51,423 nt of DNA, from positions 1-51,423 of the forward strand of contig PHGD01000016.1 of NCBI GenBank assembly GCA_011090425.1, in the 5' to 3' direction. The DNA is from Nitrospira sp. LK70 (GTDB taxonomy: Bacteria; Nitrospirota; Nitrospiria; Nitrospirales; Nitrospiraceae). The notes beneath the pieces are model-generated. The model ran no database searches and was not told where the DNA came from. It saw only the letters and a program-made list of their open reading frames with translations. Both the position numbers and the translations under genes were made by a program. Below, in pieces: positions 15,157-25,276 of this stretch; within the stretch, counting starts at the first letter, position 1; the number at the start of each line of letters is the position of its first letter.

Positions 15157-15326
15157 TTTGTCTGTTGAATCAGTATGTTGCAATCGATACGTAGCGGGAT
15201 TATAGGTGCCGCCGGAGAGGAAGGTCAAGAAAGGGAGATTTTCCTCGGCGCTTTCCACCATGTGGTCACTCGCCGCAACAAAGCCTGTGTTTGCATGATG
15301 ATCACCGTAGGGTTACAGAGCAGGTT

Positions 15327-16856
15327 TCACGGGAGATAATAGCGAATCGTCGTCATGATCGTATGCTGTTCCCCCCAGGGCGTTATCCCGTTTAAGCCCG
15401 ACCACACAGTGCGATGTGTGTACTGATAGGAGAGTCCGAGCGCGACGATCCCAAGATCTGAGTTGATCATCCGATACCAAAACCCAGGTTGAACCTGGCT
15501 GACGGTCTGATTGCCGGCGTGGCAAGGCTGAGTTCCCGGATCTTCGACTCCACAACCACTGAGGTCAGCCAAGGGGGAACCGTATCCGATCGATGTGCCG
15601 GCATAGGCTGTTCTCGCGTAATGCTCTAACCCGTAGTATGCATAGACATCCCAATCCTCTCCCGGATGCCATTCGAGTCCTGCCATAAAATGGACCGCTG
15701 GAATCGGCACAACCCTGCCCGAGGGGCTGGCGACGACATCGGCCCCGATCGTGGAGGCATAGCGACCGATTCCTTGTCCTACCAAACCTTCAGCGATCAG
15801 AGTGAGCCTTGGTGTTACGGGAAGCACGGCAGCCAGTCCTAGCCCGCCACCGACAGCGACATGGTTCTCACCACCTAATCGATCCCGAAAAAATCTGACA
15901 AGACCTTTCATTTCCCAGTGCCCATATCTGGGCTCCCATACCAGCTTCCCTACGATGTCCGGTGCAAGATCAGTCGAAATACCATTGGCTCCCGGCGTGG
16001 CACTGGTGGTGAAAAAATTAGAGGGATTTTGGGCATTGGAGGAGGTATTGAAACCCTGTACGCCGGTCGGCTGAACGACTCCGTTCACATTGGTTTCTGG
16101 ATTTTCGATCGAAACAGCCATGAGGAAACTGGGACCGAAGGCTTTGGTGACACGCAATCCCCATTGCCGCGCCCAATTGTTCCCCACCACTGTTTGGAGG
16201 TCCGTGTTAAGAGGGATGAACTCGTGTCTCGGCTTGATTCTGTCGCGATAGGTGGTGAGAAGAGACCAGCTTTGGCCGAACAAGACGGAGAGGCCATTAG
16301 GAAGATCGACATTACCCCACACTTGGCGCAGCCTCGGCCCCCAGCTATTCGTCTCCAATTCGTTCGAGTAGGTCGAGCCGCCGAGAAAGTCGAATTCGAC
16401 ATAGCCGGCGACCGCAGTTTTCCGATATTCCCCTTCGACTAAGAGGTTCAAACGGGAACCACGAGCCGTTCCTCGAAATTCCGAAAGCTGGCTGTTGGCT
16501 GACCCTTGGAGCGCGATGTTTCCATACGTACTTTGAACGTCTGCATTTTCATTGGTAGAACGGAAGATAGCGGTTCCGTCGAAAAAACCACCAGGTGAAA
16601 TGACGATGCCTTTGTACCGAAACAGCTGGTATCCTCGCCCAGCAATCCGCCCCGCAGTGGATAACCCCCGACTCGTAGATTGTTGCCCCTCCTCCGCTGT
16701 GGCATTCGCATCCGAGCCTTCCGGACTACTGGCCGGTTGATCCACCGCCGAGGTATCAGCAAATACCTCCGCGCTCGAATACCACTGCATGAACAAAAGG
16801 GCGAGGAAGGCTAGCCTGGCAAAGTAAGAGCGATCACGACCGACATTCCACGACAT
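15327..16856 (-). CDS. Outer-membrane beta-barrel protein, porin-like
   Basis: This 509-residue protein has a signal peptide (hydrophobic core ARLAFLALLFMQW, cut near VFA-D) and a Ser/Pro/Glu-rich linker at about 33-65. A long region of alternating hydrophobic/polar strands with many aromatic residues follows, ending in RYYLP, a plausible barrel end strand. The layout recalls DcaP-like porins, but no specific family can be assigned. Two Cys near 445-455 (SGCGVEDPGTQPC) could form a disulfide in an extracellular loop. It starts with ATG at 16856 and is not obviously linked to the moa genes downstream. Confidence 0.65.
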   Translation of the reverse strand: MSWNVGRDRSYFARLAFLALLFMQWYSSAEVFADTSAVDQPASSPEGSDANATAEEGQQSTSRGLSTAGRIAGRGYQLFRYKGIVISPGGFFDGTAIFRSTNENADVQSTYGNIALQGSANSQLSEFRGTARGSRLNLLVEGEYRKTAVAGYVEFDFLGGSTYSNELETNSWGPRLRQVWGNVDLPNGLSVLFGQSWSLLTTYRDRIKPRHEFIPLNTDLQTVVGNNWARQWGLRVTKAFGPSFLMAVSIENPETNVNGVVQPTGVQGFNTSSNAQNPSNFFTTSATPGANGISTDLAPDIVGKLVWEPRYGHWEMKGLVRFFRDRLGGENHVAVGGGLGLAAVLPVTPRLTLIAEGLVGQGIGRYASTIGADVVASPSGRVVPIPAVHFMAGLEWHPGEDWDVYAYYGLEHYARTAYAGTSIGYGSPLADLSGCGVEDPGTQPCHAGNQTVSQVQPGFWYRMINSDLGIVALGLSYQYTHRTVWSGLNGITPWGEQHTIMTTIRYYLP

Positions 16857-17136: not shown

Positions 17137-17532
17137 CTAGTTGGATGAGACCATAGCTCTCTCCAGCTCGCCCTCACTTCGATCTTCAGGTAGGACAGAC
17201 GCGTATTGGTGTTTAACATGATCGTAGGGGCGCCCTGCCTGTCCGCCGATGCGTGCCCCGGCCTGTCCCTCTACTCCTTCTTCAGGTTGGACCTCTGCAG
17301 GTTTGAGATGATCATAGGGCTGTCCAGCTTGCCCCCCGATTCGTTCTCCAGCTTGGACAGACGCGAACTCTTGTTTGATGTGCTCGTATGGGAGCCCTGC
17401 CTGGCCGCCGATTCGTTGAGCGGAACGGGAGACCGTTGTCTCATCTCCAGCCCACGTCGTCTCATCTGACAGGCCGACAGCCAGCACAGAGCCACAAGCG
17501 ACGGTACAAACGATTTTGGCTAGCGCTTTCAT
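17137..17532 (-). CDS. Exported protein with three GGQAG-x-PY(D/E)H repeats, unknown function
   Basis: The start at ATG 17532 is fixed by a perfect AAGGAGG 6 nt upstream. It gives a 131-residue protein with a signal peptide (MKALAKIVCTVACGSVLAVG, cut around TWAGD). The mature part has three copies of RIGGQAG-x-PY(D/E)H-x-K, at about 40-53, 64-77 and 94-107, joined by Glu/Gln/Val-rich spacers. An extra partial unit GVEGQAG precedes the third. The family is not recognised. The periodic Gly, Tyr and His suggest a repeated binding site or a structural coat protein in the periplasm or beyond. A minus-strand terminator and short leader frame lie about 180-260 nt upstream. Confidence 0.7.
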   Translation of the reverse strand: MKALAKIVCTVACGSVLAVGLSDETTWAGDETTVSRSAQRIGGQAGLPYEHIKQEFASVQAGERIGGQAGQPYDHLKPAEVQPEEGVEGQAGARIGGQAGRPYDHVKHQYASVLPEDRSEGELERAMVSSN

Positions 17533-17714
17533 AGGAACCTCCTTGCTTGGAAAAAGCTTGGGAAGATCTACAGGGAAAAACGACACCCTCTGCATTGGTG
17601 CAGACAAGAAGGACGTGATGATGTGACACTTCAAGACAGAGCTGTGGCTCTCTGGAGAATGTACGAATGAAAGGGGAAAGGAAAAAGCGGAAGGGGCTCT
17701 ACCGAGGGGGCCCA

Positions 17715-17751
17715 TAAAAAAACTCCTACCAGATGATGTCAGGTAGGAGTT
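17715..17751 (-). terminator. Intrinsic terminator on the minus strand
   Basis: A perfect 10-bp stem (arms 17721-17730 and 17742-17751, 11-nt loop) is followed on the minus strand by seven T (17716-17722 read in reverse). This is a textbook rho-independent terminator. No minus-strand gene lies before it except a 13-codon frame ending at 17753, so it may end a small RNA or act as an attenuator for the repeat-protein gene downstream. Confidence 0.75.
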
Positions 17752-17752
17752 A

Positions 17753-17794
17753 TCATTCCCCTCGACTGAGAGGACGGTTCTTGGTGAACTCCAT
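17753..17794 (-). other. Possible 13-residue leader peptide before the terminator
   Basis: An ATG at 17794 opens a frame reading MEFTKNRPLSRGE and stops at 17753, directly against the terminator stem. The position is typical of a leader peptide, but there is no clear ribosome site and no run of a single regulatory amino acid. It could be chance. Confidence 0.2.
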
Positions 17795-17972
17795 CACCGC
17801 GTTAATTTATTCAGTAAACACTGCAAGCCTCACACCAAACAAAAGCCTGACGAAACGGCTCGGTTCTACAGGCTCAAGCACGACAAGAAGCTTATTCGCA
17901 CAGTGGGCCATGTGCAGGATCTCACACGTTTAGTCACCGGCTTCATTGATCCCCCCGCGCCTTCGAAACCCA

Positions 17973-21852: not shown

Positions 21853-21975
21853 ACGTACGCCGCTGCGGTTTGCTTCATAGGATGAATCACCTATAGAGGT
21901 AACTTCTATCCTGGGCACCGTATCGTCATGGACACCAAGCGGCGCCCGGGCAAATCCCAAAAAAGGAGGAGGACA

Positions 21976-22461
21976 ATGTCGATCCTGATGCTCATCATCA
22001 CATTATTGATCGGTGTTCCTGCCATCGCAGGGGTACCGGTGAAGGAAGAGTCATACAAGCAGGCCGTGAGCGAACTGGAAGAGAAGGGGTCGGTGCCGCT
22101 GATCGACGCCGTGAGCCGGTCGGAGGGCAAGGGACACTTGGAAGGAATCAGGTTTCACCCGCGGATTGTCGGTGGCGAGGACGCGGAGATCAAGGACAGC
22201 CCCTGGCAGGTGTCGATCGTCGCGGCGGAATCCACCTCAAACCTGACCGGACACTTCTGCGGAGGATCCCTGATCAAACCCAACTGGGTCCTGACGGCGT
22301 CGCATTGCGTCAGTCGAGGCACGATGCCGGATCAAATCGACATCATCTCAGGGACCGATGATCTTCGGTCGGGTGGGAAAAGAAGCTCGGTCAAACAAAT
22401 CATCATCCATGGCAAATCCAACGCGAATACGAATGACAACGACGTTAGCGGGCATTCTTGA
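21976..22461 (+). pseudogene. Truncated trypsin-like serine protease (S1 family)
   Basis: The start at ATG 21976 is fixed by AGGAGGAGG just upstream. It gives a signal peptide ([19 protein letters not shown]), a pro-region and the activation site [10 protein letters not shown] at 63-70. The protease core then begins normally: [18 protein letters not shown] has the catalytic His110. The frame stops a few residues after NDNDV, exactly where the catalytic Asp (D156, in the position of NDIALL) is found in the family. The whole C-terminal half with the catalytic Ser is missing. The gene is therefore almost certainly broken, by deletion joining it to foreign sequence (see 22452-22565). Confidence 0.8.
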
Positions 22462-22573: not shown

Positions 22574-25276
22574 TTACGCCTGTTTCAGCGCGAAATCGTA
22601 GCTGCCGTAGTGAATGTAGTCGGCCCAATCGACGGATTTGAGCTCGCTACGCACCCTTTCTCGGCCGGCCAGGAGCGCTGCGCCGATCGTCCTCTGTCGT
22701 AACAGTTCCATGTAGAAGGTTTGAGCAAAGGCTTCAGCCGACTGATCCCCGACCGGCCAATACGTTCCCACATAGTTCGCCACGCCTCCGCGCAAGAACG
22801 CCTCCGCCAATCCCACCGCCCGCTCGATGCGCTTGTCCATATCGAGGTCTCGCTGCTTCTTTTCAGGCGGCTTTCTGATACGGCCCGCTTCACAGGCGTT
22901 GAAGAAGACCAGGCTCGGAAGATTGCCGATCGCCGCCAAATCTGCGCCATTCAATATTTCTTTCCCGTGGCACAGAATGCCGCTGCGAGCCGGCATGCGA
23001 GAATCAAAGAAAGCATGTCCGGCATAGTGGACCACATCATAGGCGCCTGACCGAAATTTCGTCAGCAACGCGGCCTTCGTGGCTTGTGGGCCATGGACTT
23101 TTTCGACAACGACCCCCGGTTGAGCGCTGAAGAGACTCTCGATCCGTTCCCCTTCCCTCTCGGCTCCCGGCAAATCTTGAGTGGGATTCACGACGAGGAG
23201 GAGTTTGAGCTTATCGGTGCGCTGCCGCTGCTCCAGCCACTTGGCCACCGACAAGTTACCGGCAAGATAACGTCGGCTCAAACCTTGACTGATCGCCGGT
23301 GCCCATCCGTCGATCTGGATCGTCTCCCAAGGGATACGTGAGGATGGGGCATCATGCACCACGACCAGATGTTGCTGTTTCATCTGTGGGAGCACGGCGA
23401 GGATTCGTTGCGGAAGCACGAGGTGCGCCAACTCATCACCGAATCGAGTCAGCGCGTCAAGACTGAAGGACGGAGACTCCACCTTTTTAAAGTGTCGATC
23501 CAGGGCCTCGCTCATGAGCTGTTGCGTATCCGTGATGACGCTGGCCTTGGATCCCGGCGTCAGGATGGACGACGTCAAGCTGATCACACCCTTCTCTTGA
23601 TCGGGCGCCTCCTGTCGAACCAGCAAGTAGGCCGGCTCCGGCCCTTTCGGAGCTCGTGACCCGCTGGGCACCAACGGAGGCTTGAGTCGCACCTCATCGA
23701 ACGTGACTTCTATGTCCTCGAAGAGTGGAGTGGTCGCAAGCCGCAAGAGGGCCGACCGAATGTCTTGATAGCGTTGCTGGTTCATCTCGCAAACCGTAAT
23801 TCGTCTGAACCAATGGTCCCCGTCCGTGTCTTTCAGCGCACGGAAAAAGCCGGTCAGCAAATCTTGCAAGGCATGGTCGATGTCCTGGCCGCTCCGCCCT
23901 CCCAGCAATACCGTGCCGAATTCTTCGACGCTCGTTCTGATACAGGTGCGAACGATATTCTCTGCGCTTACCTGCAAGACGGTATCGCTAAACTGATCGA
24001 AGTCGCCGAGCCCGGCGAAGACGATGAAATCCGCTTGGAGCGGGTGGCGGCCGGTCGGCATCACGAACACCTCGCCCACATTGCCGTCGAACATTCGTCT
24101 CGCCGTAAAATCTCGAATGGCCCCACCCATCCGTTCATCGAGCGCATCGGCCGGGCCGCTGGGAGCGACATTGCGGTAAATGCCCAACACGTAGGCGCGG
24201 CTGTCCAACTCTGTGATGCTACCCAGCGCCAGTCGGATGTCGAGGCGATGCTGTCTTCGACGGCCGACAATCACCTGATTCAACGGCTGCTCAAGCAGAG
24301 CTGGTTGCGCTGCCGCGACGGCTGGGGCACCGGCCGCAACCGGTTGTGTCCGACTGTCGGGAGCGACAAAGCCGTCCAGTGCGTACCGAATATCCTGCTC
24401 GGTTAACTCCTTCCCTTTACGGCCCCCATAGGCAGGGGTGCGGAGTTCCTGCTCCGGCAGGGCGCGGGCCGTGCTGCGTTGGCTCGGTGCCCATTGCTGA
24501 GGCAACAGCGACGTATCGCCCTGCTGCAGAATGTCGATGGTCGCTTGAGCGACGAGGCGATTGTTGGGCAGACTGCCGTGTGATTCCTCTATATAGTAGG
24601 TCTTCGTTCCCTCCAGTTCGGCAAAGGCTTTCGGCACCGTTCCATCACCTTCGTTGGAGTGCTGATACACGAATTCATTGTCACGCAGCTCCAAATCAAC
24701 GACCGTTTCCTGGTTCACTCCGGCGATGAGGAAGAAGCGATCGTCAGCCGGCGCGAGCGACTGCTGAACCGGCGGCACCTGTACCAGGAGGGACTGCTGC
24801 GGCTTGGGACCTTCGGTCGGCCAGGAGCCGACATCGAACAGATCGATGTCGTTGAACACCTCCTTCGTCGGGAGCAGCTGGTACAGACCCGGGAACGTCG
24901 TGAACACCAGCGCCGACAGCTCCTCGGCATCGTGCACTAGATCAATGGCAGCGACTTGCTTGACCACTGGGTAGACGGCCCGAATGGCCTGCACCGGCGC
25001 GAACGATCCATGGTTCGGGGTTCCAAGCATCACCAGACGATTGATCTTCTTTGTCACGGACGAGTCTCGTGCCACAGCCGCCCGCACGACCAAGCCTCCC
25101 ATACTATGCGCCACAAGCTGCACCTGTGCTGCCGGTTCTTGTTGCAGCTGAGTCACCAATTCCTCTCCCAGGACATTCAAGCCTTTTCGCCAGTCGTAGT
25201 AGTGAAAATCCGCATCGAAGCCTGCCGACTTCAACCGCAACCTCAACCCCGCATAGGCTAATGGAATGGCTCCCAA
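22574..25276 (-). CDS. Lipase / M17-N-like / CHAT-protease multidomain protein, main part after frameshift
   Basis: The frame has 900 codons and first offers a start at TTG 25276, but it really continues the upstream frame 25318-25686. Domains: alpha/beta hydrolase at 1-240 with LVAHSMGG (nucleophile Ser58) and LGTPNHG; a Pro/Ala/Gln-rich linker; a region at about 340-500 resembling the N-terminal domain of M17 leucine aminopeptidases; and a C-terminal CHAT caspase-like domain at about 570-900 with the His-Cys pair His754 (VVHYAGHAFFD) and Cys795 (VFFNACEAGR). CHAT domains are cysteine proteases often used as effectors. A serine esterase and a caspase-like protease in one polypeptide suggest a regulated, possibly self-harming or defence-type protein. 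Whether it is made depends on the frameshift. Confidence 0.8.
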   Translation of the reverse strand: MGAIPLAYAGLRLRLKSAGFDADFHYYDWRKGLNVLGEELVTQLQQEPAAQVQLVAHSMGGLVVRAAVARDSSVTKKINRLVMLGTPNHGSFAPVQAIRAVYPVVKQVAAIDLVHDAEELSALVFTTFPGLYQLLPTKEVFNDIDLFDVGSWPTEGPKPQQSLLVQVPPVQQSLAPADDRFFLIAGVNQETVVDLELRDNEFVYQHSNEGDGTVPKAFAELEGTKTYYIEESHGSLPNNRLVAQATIDILQQGDTSLLPQQWAPSQRSTARALPEQELRTPAYGGRKGKELTEQDIRYALDGFVAPDSRTQPVAAGAPAVAAAQPALLEQPLNQVIVGRRRQHRLDIRLALGSITELDSRAYVLGIYRNVAPSGPADALDERMGGAIRDFTARRMFDGNVGEVFVMPTGRHPLQADFIVFAGLGDFDQFSDTVLQVSAENIVRTCIRTSVEEFGTVLLGGRSGQDIDHALQDLLTGFFRALKDTDGDHWFRRITVCEMNQQRYQDIRSALLRLATTPLFEDIEVTFDEVRLKPPLVPSGSRAPKGPEPAYLLVRQEAPDQEKGVISLTSSILTPGSKASVITDTQQLMSEALDRHFKKVESPSFSLDALTRFGDELAHLVLPQRILAVLPQMKQQHLVVVHDAPSSRIPWETIQIDGWAPAISQGLSRRYLAGNLSVAKWLEQRQRTDKLKLLLVVNPTQDLPGAEREGERIESLFSAQPGVVVEKVHGPQATKAALLTKFRSGAYDVVHYAGHAFFDSRMPARSGILCHGKEILNGADLAAIGNLPSLVFFNACEAGRIRKPPEKKQRDLDMDKRIERAVGLAEAFLRGGVANYVGTYWPVGDQSAEAFAQTFYMELLRQRTIGAALLAGRERVRSELKSVDWADYIHYGSYDFALKQA

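Follow-up and report, generated by a model that had tools for sequence, protein, structure and literature searches.

A gene for a GGQAG-repeat protein with a signal-like start lies between a fluoride riboswitch and a DcaP-like porin gene in Nitrospira

Nitrospira sp. LK70 carries a small gene whose product begins like an exported protein and contains three copies of a GGQAG-bearing unit, which raises the question of what such a protein does and under which condition it is made. A sequence-only reading of the window (the whole 51,423-nt stretch of DNA analyzed) had described this open reading frame, its strand, its repeat units, its signal-like start and its perfect ribosome binding site, and we found each of them as described (Table 1; 131 codons plus a stop). 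That reading missed a fluoride riboswitch upstream of the gene and a linked porin gene, which are what give the GGQAG gene its meaning.

Table 1 Features of the GGQAG locus in the window.
Feature	Position	Strand	Evidence
DcaP-like outer-membrane porin, 509 aa, second gene of proposed operon	15327..16856	-	synteny, model, fold match
GGQAG-repeat exported protein, 131 aa	17137..17532	-	homologues; no Pfam or NCBIfam match
Repeat 3 RIGGQAGRPYDH, residues 94-105	17218..17253	-	pattern search, repeat analysis
Repeat 2 RIGGQAGQPYDH, residues 64-75	17308..17343	-	pattern search, repeat analysis
Repeat 1 RIGGQAGLPYEH, residues 40-51	17380..17415	-	pattern search, repeat analysis
Signal-peptide-like N terminus, residues 1-29	17446..17532	-	alignment and single predicted helix 2-21
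Shine-Dalgarno AAGGAGG of GGQAG gene	17538..17544	-	sequence, leader alignment
Intrinsic terminator hairpin, 10-bp stem then T run	17715..17751	-	sequence, hairpin scan, 11 leaders
Fluoride riboswitch aptamer (RF01734)	17737..17807	-	cmscan 47.9 bits, gathering 34, full model 1-64

The three RIGGQAGxPY(D/E)H units share the same residues and use clearly different codons, which indicates that protein-level selection maintains them; a recent DNA duplication as their source was therefore rejected. A 5-mer in three copies appeared in only 2 of 20,000 shuffles of the mature part, and the repeat is not due to chance. The search for GGQAGxPY[DE]H suggested in the sequence-only reading gave 17 matches at the DNA level. 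They come from 9 of the 196 related genomes searched and belong without exception to the GGQAG family; the reversed control pattern gave none in the same 196 genomes. The dN/dS values of GGQAG homologues (0.17-0.38 in the seven pairs computed) indicate a real coding gene and, together with the existence of homologues, reject a spurious ORF. The signal peptide is likely cleaved after TWA, as judged by eye. The protein had no match in Pfam or NCBIfam, which agrees with its earlier description as unrecognised; neither of the two outcomes named there as refuting that description, a profile match or a complete lack of homologues, was found. Searches against PDB sequences returned only adenylate kinases (E 0.09-1.1), which we took as chance hits and not as relatives of solved structure. 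AlphaFold, run on 18 aligned rows, predicted one helix (residues 2-21) and otherwise disorder, with pLDDT mostly below 50.

Homologues were found in 19 of the 196 related genomes by protein search (E up to 0.01), and the six named records found are Nitrospira MAGs. In a phylum-wide set of 395 genomes, a profile search detected the family in 18, belonging to three genera; it occurs in Nitrospira and sister genera. The alignment defined R-x-GGQAG as the invariant core over the whole family. The claim of invariant Gly, Tyr and His thus holds for the Gly of this core, whereas Pro, Tyr and His of the unit are kept in a close subgroup only, Tyr and His falling outside the invariant columns. Members of the wider family have the same type of signal peptide, and some add a C-terminal domain, which in the one member scanned (L145) gave a weak S1-like match below the cut-off. 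Six exported-looking proteins (L138, L139, L140, L145, L146 and L149) combine this signal-peptide type with a C-terminal domain GEVLRVEGxNYFVKGxDGKEVR..., and some of the six carry one GGQAG-like unit. Judging from these sequences, the leader seems to be common to several small Nitrospira envelope proteins.

When the whole window was scanned against Rfam, the single match was a fluoride riboswitch with a complete core, located on the same strand as the GGQAG gene and 204 nt upstream of its ATG. We aligned and folded 11 leaders from 10 genomes (G116, from a sister genus, contributing two), and the 5' arm of the terminator was found to lie inside the aptamer, forming the expression platform. The core segments GGTGATGGAGTTCACC and ACTCCTACC were kept in the aligned leaders, apart from single-base differences in G031 (GATGGGG) and G016 (ACTCCTGCC). 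According to the available text of PMC2864571, the terminator also overlaps the aptamer in crcB RNAs, and the ligand is expected to raise expression. Judged by its layout, the window leader would switch transcription on when it binds fluoride. The sequence-only reading had predicted strong expression from the ribosome binding site. The site is indeed good; however, it does not equal constant high expression because the riboswitch terminator lies upstream, and constitutive strong expression from the Shine-Dalgarno sequence is unsupported. Expression of the GGQAG gene is probably strong when fluoride is present.

Besides the window, the riboswitch was detected upstream of the gene and on its strand at 9 of 20 homologous GGQAG loci scanned (43.6-53.6 bits). 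It was missing at the other 11, comprising three close relatives (L008, L010, L020) and eight diverged loci (L012-L016, L026, L027, L030). A laxer scan (E 0.5) of L008, L010, L020, L012, L013, L014, L016 and L030 did not find it either, and a hidden riboswitch before the three close copies was rejected. Nor was it found at any of 13 further, mostly diverged, GGQAG loci. Since some members have no riboswitch, the family is not only about fluoride.

Across the 196 genomes, RF01734 matched in 49 (E up to 0.001; 69 rows), of which 63 rows were surveyed after dropping G107:C53 (contig end) and G048, G173, G139, G116:C7 and G165 (below gathering). The first recognized gene, assigned by similarity to one representative per class, was an antiporter in 29 cases, the GGQAG gene in 10, an ABC-transporter-like gene in 9, CrcB in 4 and the porin in 1, with 10 "other" rows not fully resolved. 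At 9 of the 10 GGQAG loci behind a riboswitch, the porin gene came next, and the combination of riboswitch, GGQAG gene (one copy broken) and DcaP-like porin recurs in 10 of the 196 genomes. In G116, porin and GGQAG gene each lie behind their own fluoride riboswitch (53.6 bits before the porin), so the two genes are tied separately to the same signal. Downstream of the GGQAG gene in this genome are a DUF6799 gene, an antiporter gene (PF00999) and a Usp gene. In G010, G016 and G024 the GGQAG riboswitch stands back to back with one that controls an antiporter, and the genome of the window has a second fluoride riboswitch before an antiporter on another contig.

Several other genes met in the survey are recorded here. 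The ABC-transporter-like protein (560 aa at L090:355-2037 (+); PF00005 at 34.5 bits, weak CydC-like match) reads QSNVQKTAM, by eye, where Walker A is expected, and its sequence suggests that it may not be a normal ATPase. Two exported-looking proteins without a Pfam match, at L108:1027-1857 (+) (G012, C2:113155) and L095:404-1573 (+) (G094), lie behind fluoride riboswitches and may be other outer-membrane proteins. Similar exported-looking proteins of 136 aa follow fluoride riboswitches at L093:641-1051 (+) (G088) and L105:995-1405 (+) (G082), and a Pfam scan of the G088 protein gave no match. At L057:796-1110 (-) (G098), the gene behind a fluoride riboswitch encodes a small helix-hairpin-helix protein whose start is signal-like. 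Tandem same-strand fluoride riboswitches occur in G089 (L101; starts about 0.96 kb apart) and G088 (L093; about 0.6 kb). Elsewhere in the window, a trypsin-like ORF (21928-22461 (+)) lies next to an ORF of 900 aa (22574-25276 (-)) that combines lipase-like and CHAT protease domains.

Homologues of the 509-aa porin were found in 14 of the 196 genomes: the 10 with the riboswitch-GGQAG locus, one with a fragment (G036) and three with more distant copies (G123, G126, G185), whose scanned flanks gave no riboswitch. Its structural model, of low confidence (pLDDT 50), has 16 predicted strands, and the best PDB match by Foldseek was DcaP (6eus), at E 2.2e-11 and 17% identity; OmpF-type porins came next. 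No match was found for the window porin in Pfam, NCBIfam or PDB sequences (the last at E up to 1); because a sequence profile match is missing, we name it DcaP-like and do not file it as DcaP. Among its homologues, L119 has a Porin_2 match (E 3.2e-4) that does not reach the curated cut-off, and L120 was left out of the alignment since its ORF was in the wrong frame. The window porin has no clear N-terminal coiled coil; in that region, L119 and L121 carry a charged stretch rich in Lys, Glu and Gln.

The two genes are separated in the window by 280 nt, which is a long gap for an operon. No terminator-like site was found in any of the eight GGQAG-porin gaps examined, including this one, by the same hairpin scan that detects the riboswitch terminator. 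Both proteins are under purifying selection (dN/dS). The operon may run on into moaC: terminator-like sites were also absent from the porin-moaC stretches scanned in six genomes, but a near-consensus promoter (TTGACC, 18 nt, TATAAT; 15199-15228 (-), by eye) precedes the conserved moaC start. As a separate observation, the porin dS between the window and G116, which belongs to another genus, is 0.44, equal to that for same-genus G010, and the dS of the GGQAG gene between window and G116 is far higher (1.68). Such values suggest that the porin may have moved between genera.

Known fluoride exporters are mostly undetected in these genomes. CrcB (PF02537) was detected in one of the ten operon genomes (G040) and undetected in nine, and CLC (PF00654) was found in none of the ten, with positive search controls; across all 196 genomes, CrcB occurs in 97 and CLC in 29. 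Among the 79 genomes of the genus, CrcB was present in 1 of 9 operon genomes vs 48 of 70 others (p = 0.0015, Fisher test) and in 6 of 22 riboswitch genomes vs 43 of 57 others (p = 0.0002), in tests that ignore shared ancestry and include several incomplete genomes. Neither PF02537 nor PF00654 domains were found in the GGQAG protein or the porin.

We consider it likely that a two-gene envelope operon induced by fluoride begins with the GGQAG gene, and that both products are exported and have a role in fluoride tolerance. The sequence gives good support to fluoride regulation of the GGQAG-porin locus, and we infer co-transcription, export and fluoride induction of the two genes. In the first step, cytoplasmic fluoride would bind the RF01734 aptamer, which would block the terminator hairpin and allow both genes to be transcribed; this predicted switching is strongly supported by the sequence. 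After export, the GGQAG protein would be a flexible and mostly disordered chain in the periplasm, and the porin would form a DcaP-like channel of 16 strands in the outer membrane. Finally, the porin would drain fluoride and other anions from the periplasm so that fluoride or HF exported across the inner membrane is kept from re-entry, a riboswitch-controlled CPA2-type cation/proton antiporter would restore pH, and the GGQAG protein would act beside the porin, either partnering it or serving as a disordered protein that protects and buffers ions. That the porin drains anions including fluoride, with the repeat protein as its flexible periplasmic partner, is a tentative proposal: we infer possible fluoride passage only from the fold resemblance at 17% identity, and the low-confidence models of both proteins say nothing on how either works. 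It appears rather unlikely that some Nitrospira without either known exporter class use an envelope-based defence in which a riboswitch-controlled inner-membrane antiporter is joined by a dedicated outer-membrane anion channel and the GGQAG protein, the latter two moving or holding fluoride outside the cytoplasm; if they do, the GGQAG repeat would be a new fluoride- or porin-handling element.

An equally tentative reading gives the GGQAG protein a general, hydrophilin-like role in the periplasm, where it would shield envelope proteins or membranes in acid and fluoride stress independently of the porin. Hydrophilins are defined by more than 6% glycine and strong hydrophilicity, and the mature part of the window protein falls within this definition (Gly 13.7%, GRAVY -0.89), as does the wider range of the five members computed (Gly 13.7-20.7%, GRAVY -0.87 to -1.36), all of which, the window's included, lack Cys and Trp. 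The disordered model and the wider R-x-GGQAG family lacking a riboswitch, as expected for a general stress protein, point the same way. Furthermore, the riboswitch-linked GGQAG copy is broken in one of ten genomes (G024) beside an intact porin, so the protein is not essential to the porin in that genome. (The riboswitch-linked copy of G012 is short, at 79 aa.) However, no Pfam match to LEA or KGG-type families was found, and the strict R-x-GGQAG conservation exceeds what general physical chemistry needs, suggesting a specific contact.

It is unlikely that the porin serves import, with carboxylates or nutrients brought in as a by-pass when fluoride blocks enolase and the GGQAG protein as an accessory. 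The available text of PMC12338516 states that carboxylic acid use in Acinetobacter needs DcaP-family porins, and that of PMC11139923 that the riboswitch controls enolase elsewhere; an enolase gene also lies behind a fluoride riboswitch in G100. In G024 and G016, a permease of the sodium:bile-acid-symporter family (PF01758) is encoded 37-87 nt behind the porin gene; in G036 it is next to the porin fragment. However, this permease is found widely, in 42 of 196 genomes, and stands away from the porin in the five other contexts mapped, and it was rejected as a constant operon member; sequence cannot separate fluoride exit from nutrient entry.

Binding of a metal ion or of peptidoglycan by the repeats in the periplasm, also raised in the sequence-only reading, found no support and is improbable. 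Fluoride chemistry involves Mg, Ca and Al, and a cation buffer would make sense; Tyr, Asp/Glu and His are regularly placed in the close subgroup. However, Tyr and His are not family-wide, the first unit of the riboswitch-linked G116 protein (RIGGQAGRGYESLK) has no such His, the mature part has neither Cys nor Trp, and no profile match to a peptidoglycan-binding domain was found. A relic riboswitch, or one with another target, that has come to stand before the GGQAG gene by chance is highly improbable: the leader is long (176-228 nt from aptamer end to ATG in all 11) and the locus neighbors vary, yet 10 divergent genomes keep aptamer and terminator intact and G116 has one riboswitch per gene.

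The proposed fluoride-induced envelope operon would extend fluoride tolerance to the outer membrane and periplasm, and the Nitrospira that carry it mostly lack the known exporters. These nitrite-oxidizing bacteria matter for wastewater, and the uncharacterized GGQAG repeat family gains a testable condition, fluoride. Literature searches found no link of a fluoride riboswitch to a porin, within a coverage that takes in few subscription papers and makes the novelty provisional; no such arrangement was described in the titles and opening abstract lines on fluoride riboswitches with Nitrospira or the outer membrane, and the letters GGQAG gave unrelated text matches only.

Compared with known systems, the locus resembles the E. 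cloacae FRM operon, as described in the available text of PMC5533749, in having RF01734 upstream of fluoride genes with antiporter and Usp partners also present, and differs in its exported repeat protein, its outer-membrane porin and its genomes mostly without CrcB. Like Fluc/CrcB and CLC-F, its genes follow a fluoride riboswitch (CrcB follows 4 of the 63 surveyed); unlike them, neither window protein is an inner-membrane exporter. After exporters, Na+/H+ antiporters are the next commonest riboswitch genes in the accessible part of PMC11139923, and the genes reported in the parts available of PMC5533749, PMC11139923 and PMC2864571 encode exporters, antiporters, Usp proteins, and enzymes of metabolism or repair that are located in or at the cytoplasm. 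The porin resembles the 16-strand trimeric DcaP family (6eus; PMC12338516, in the text available, which also reports anion preference and a carboxylate role for DcaP) in the best fold match and strand number of its low-confidence model, and differs in its low fold-alignment identity, its missing sequence match, its lack of a clear N-terminal coiled coil and its place behind a fluoride riboswitch. The GGQAG protein is glycine-rich, hydrophilic and predicted to be disordered, with repeated Gly-Gly, like hydrophilins, LEA and KGG-repeat proteins, and unlike them it appears to be exported and has no profile match. Fluoride-riboswitch operons are known, and the envelope genes in one are the new part; the locus hints that Nitrospira also deal with fluoride at the cell envelope, in a way not described so far.
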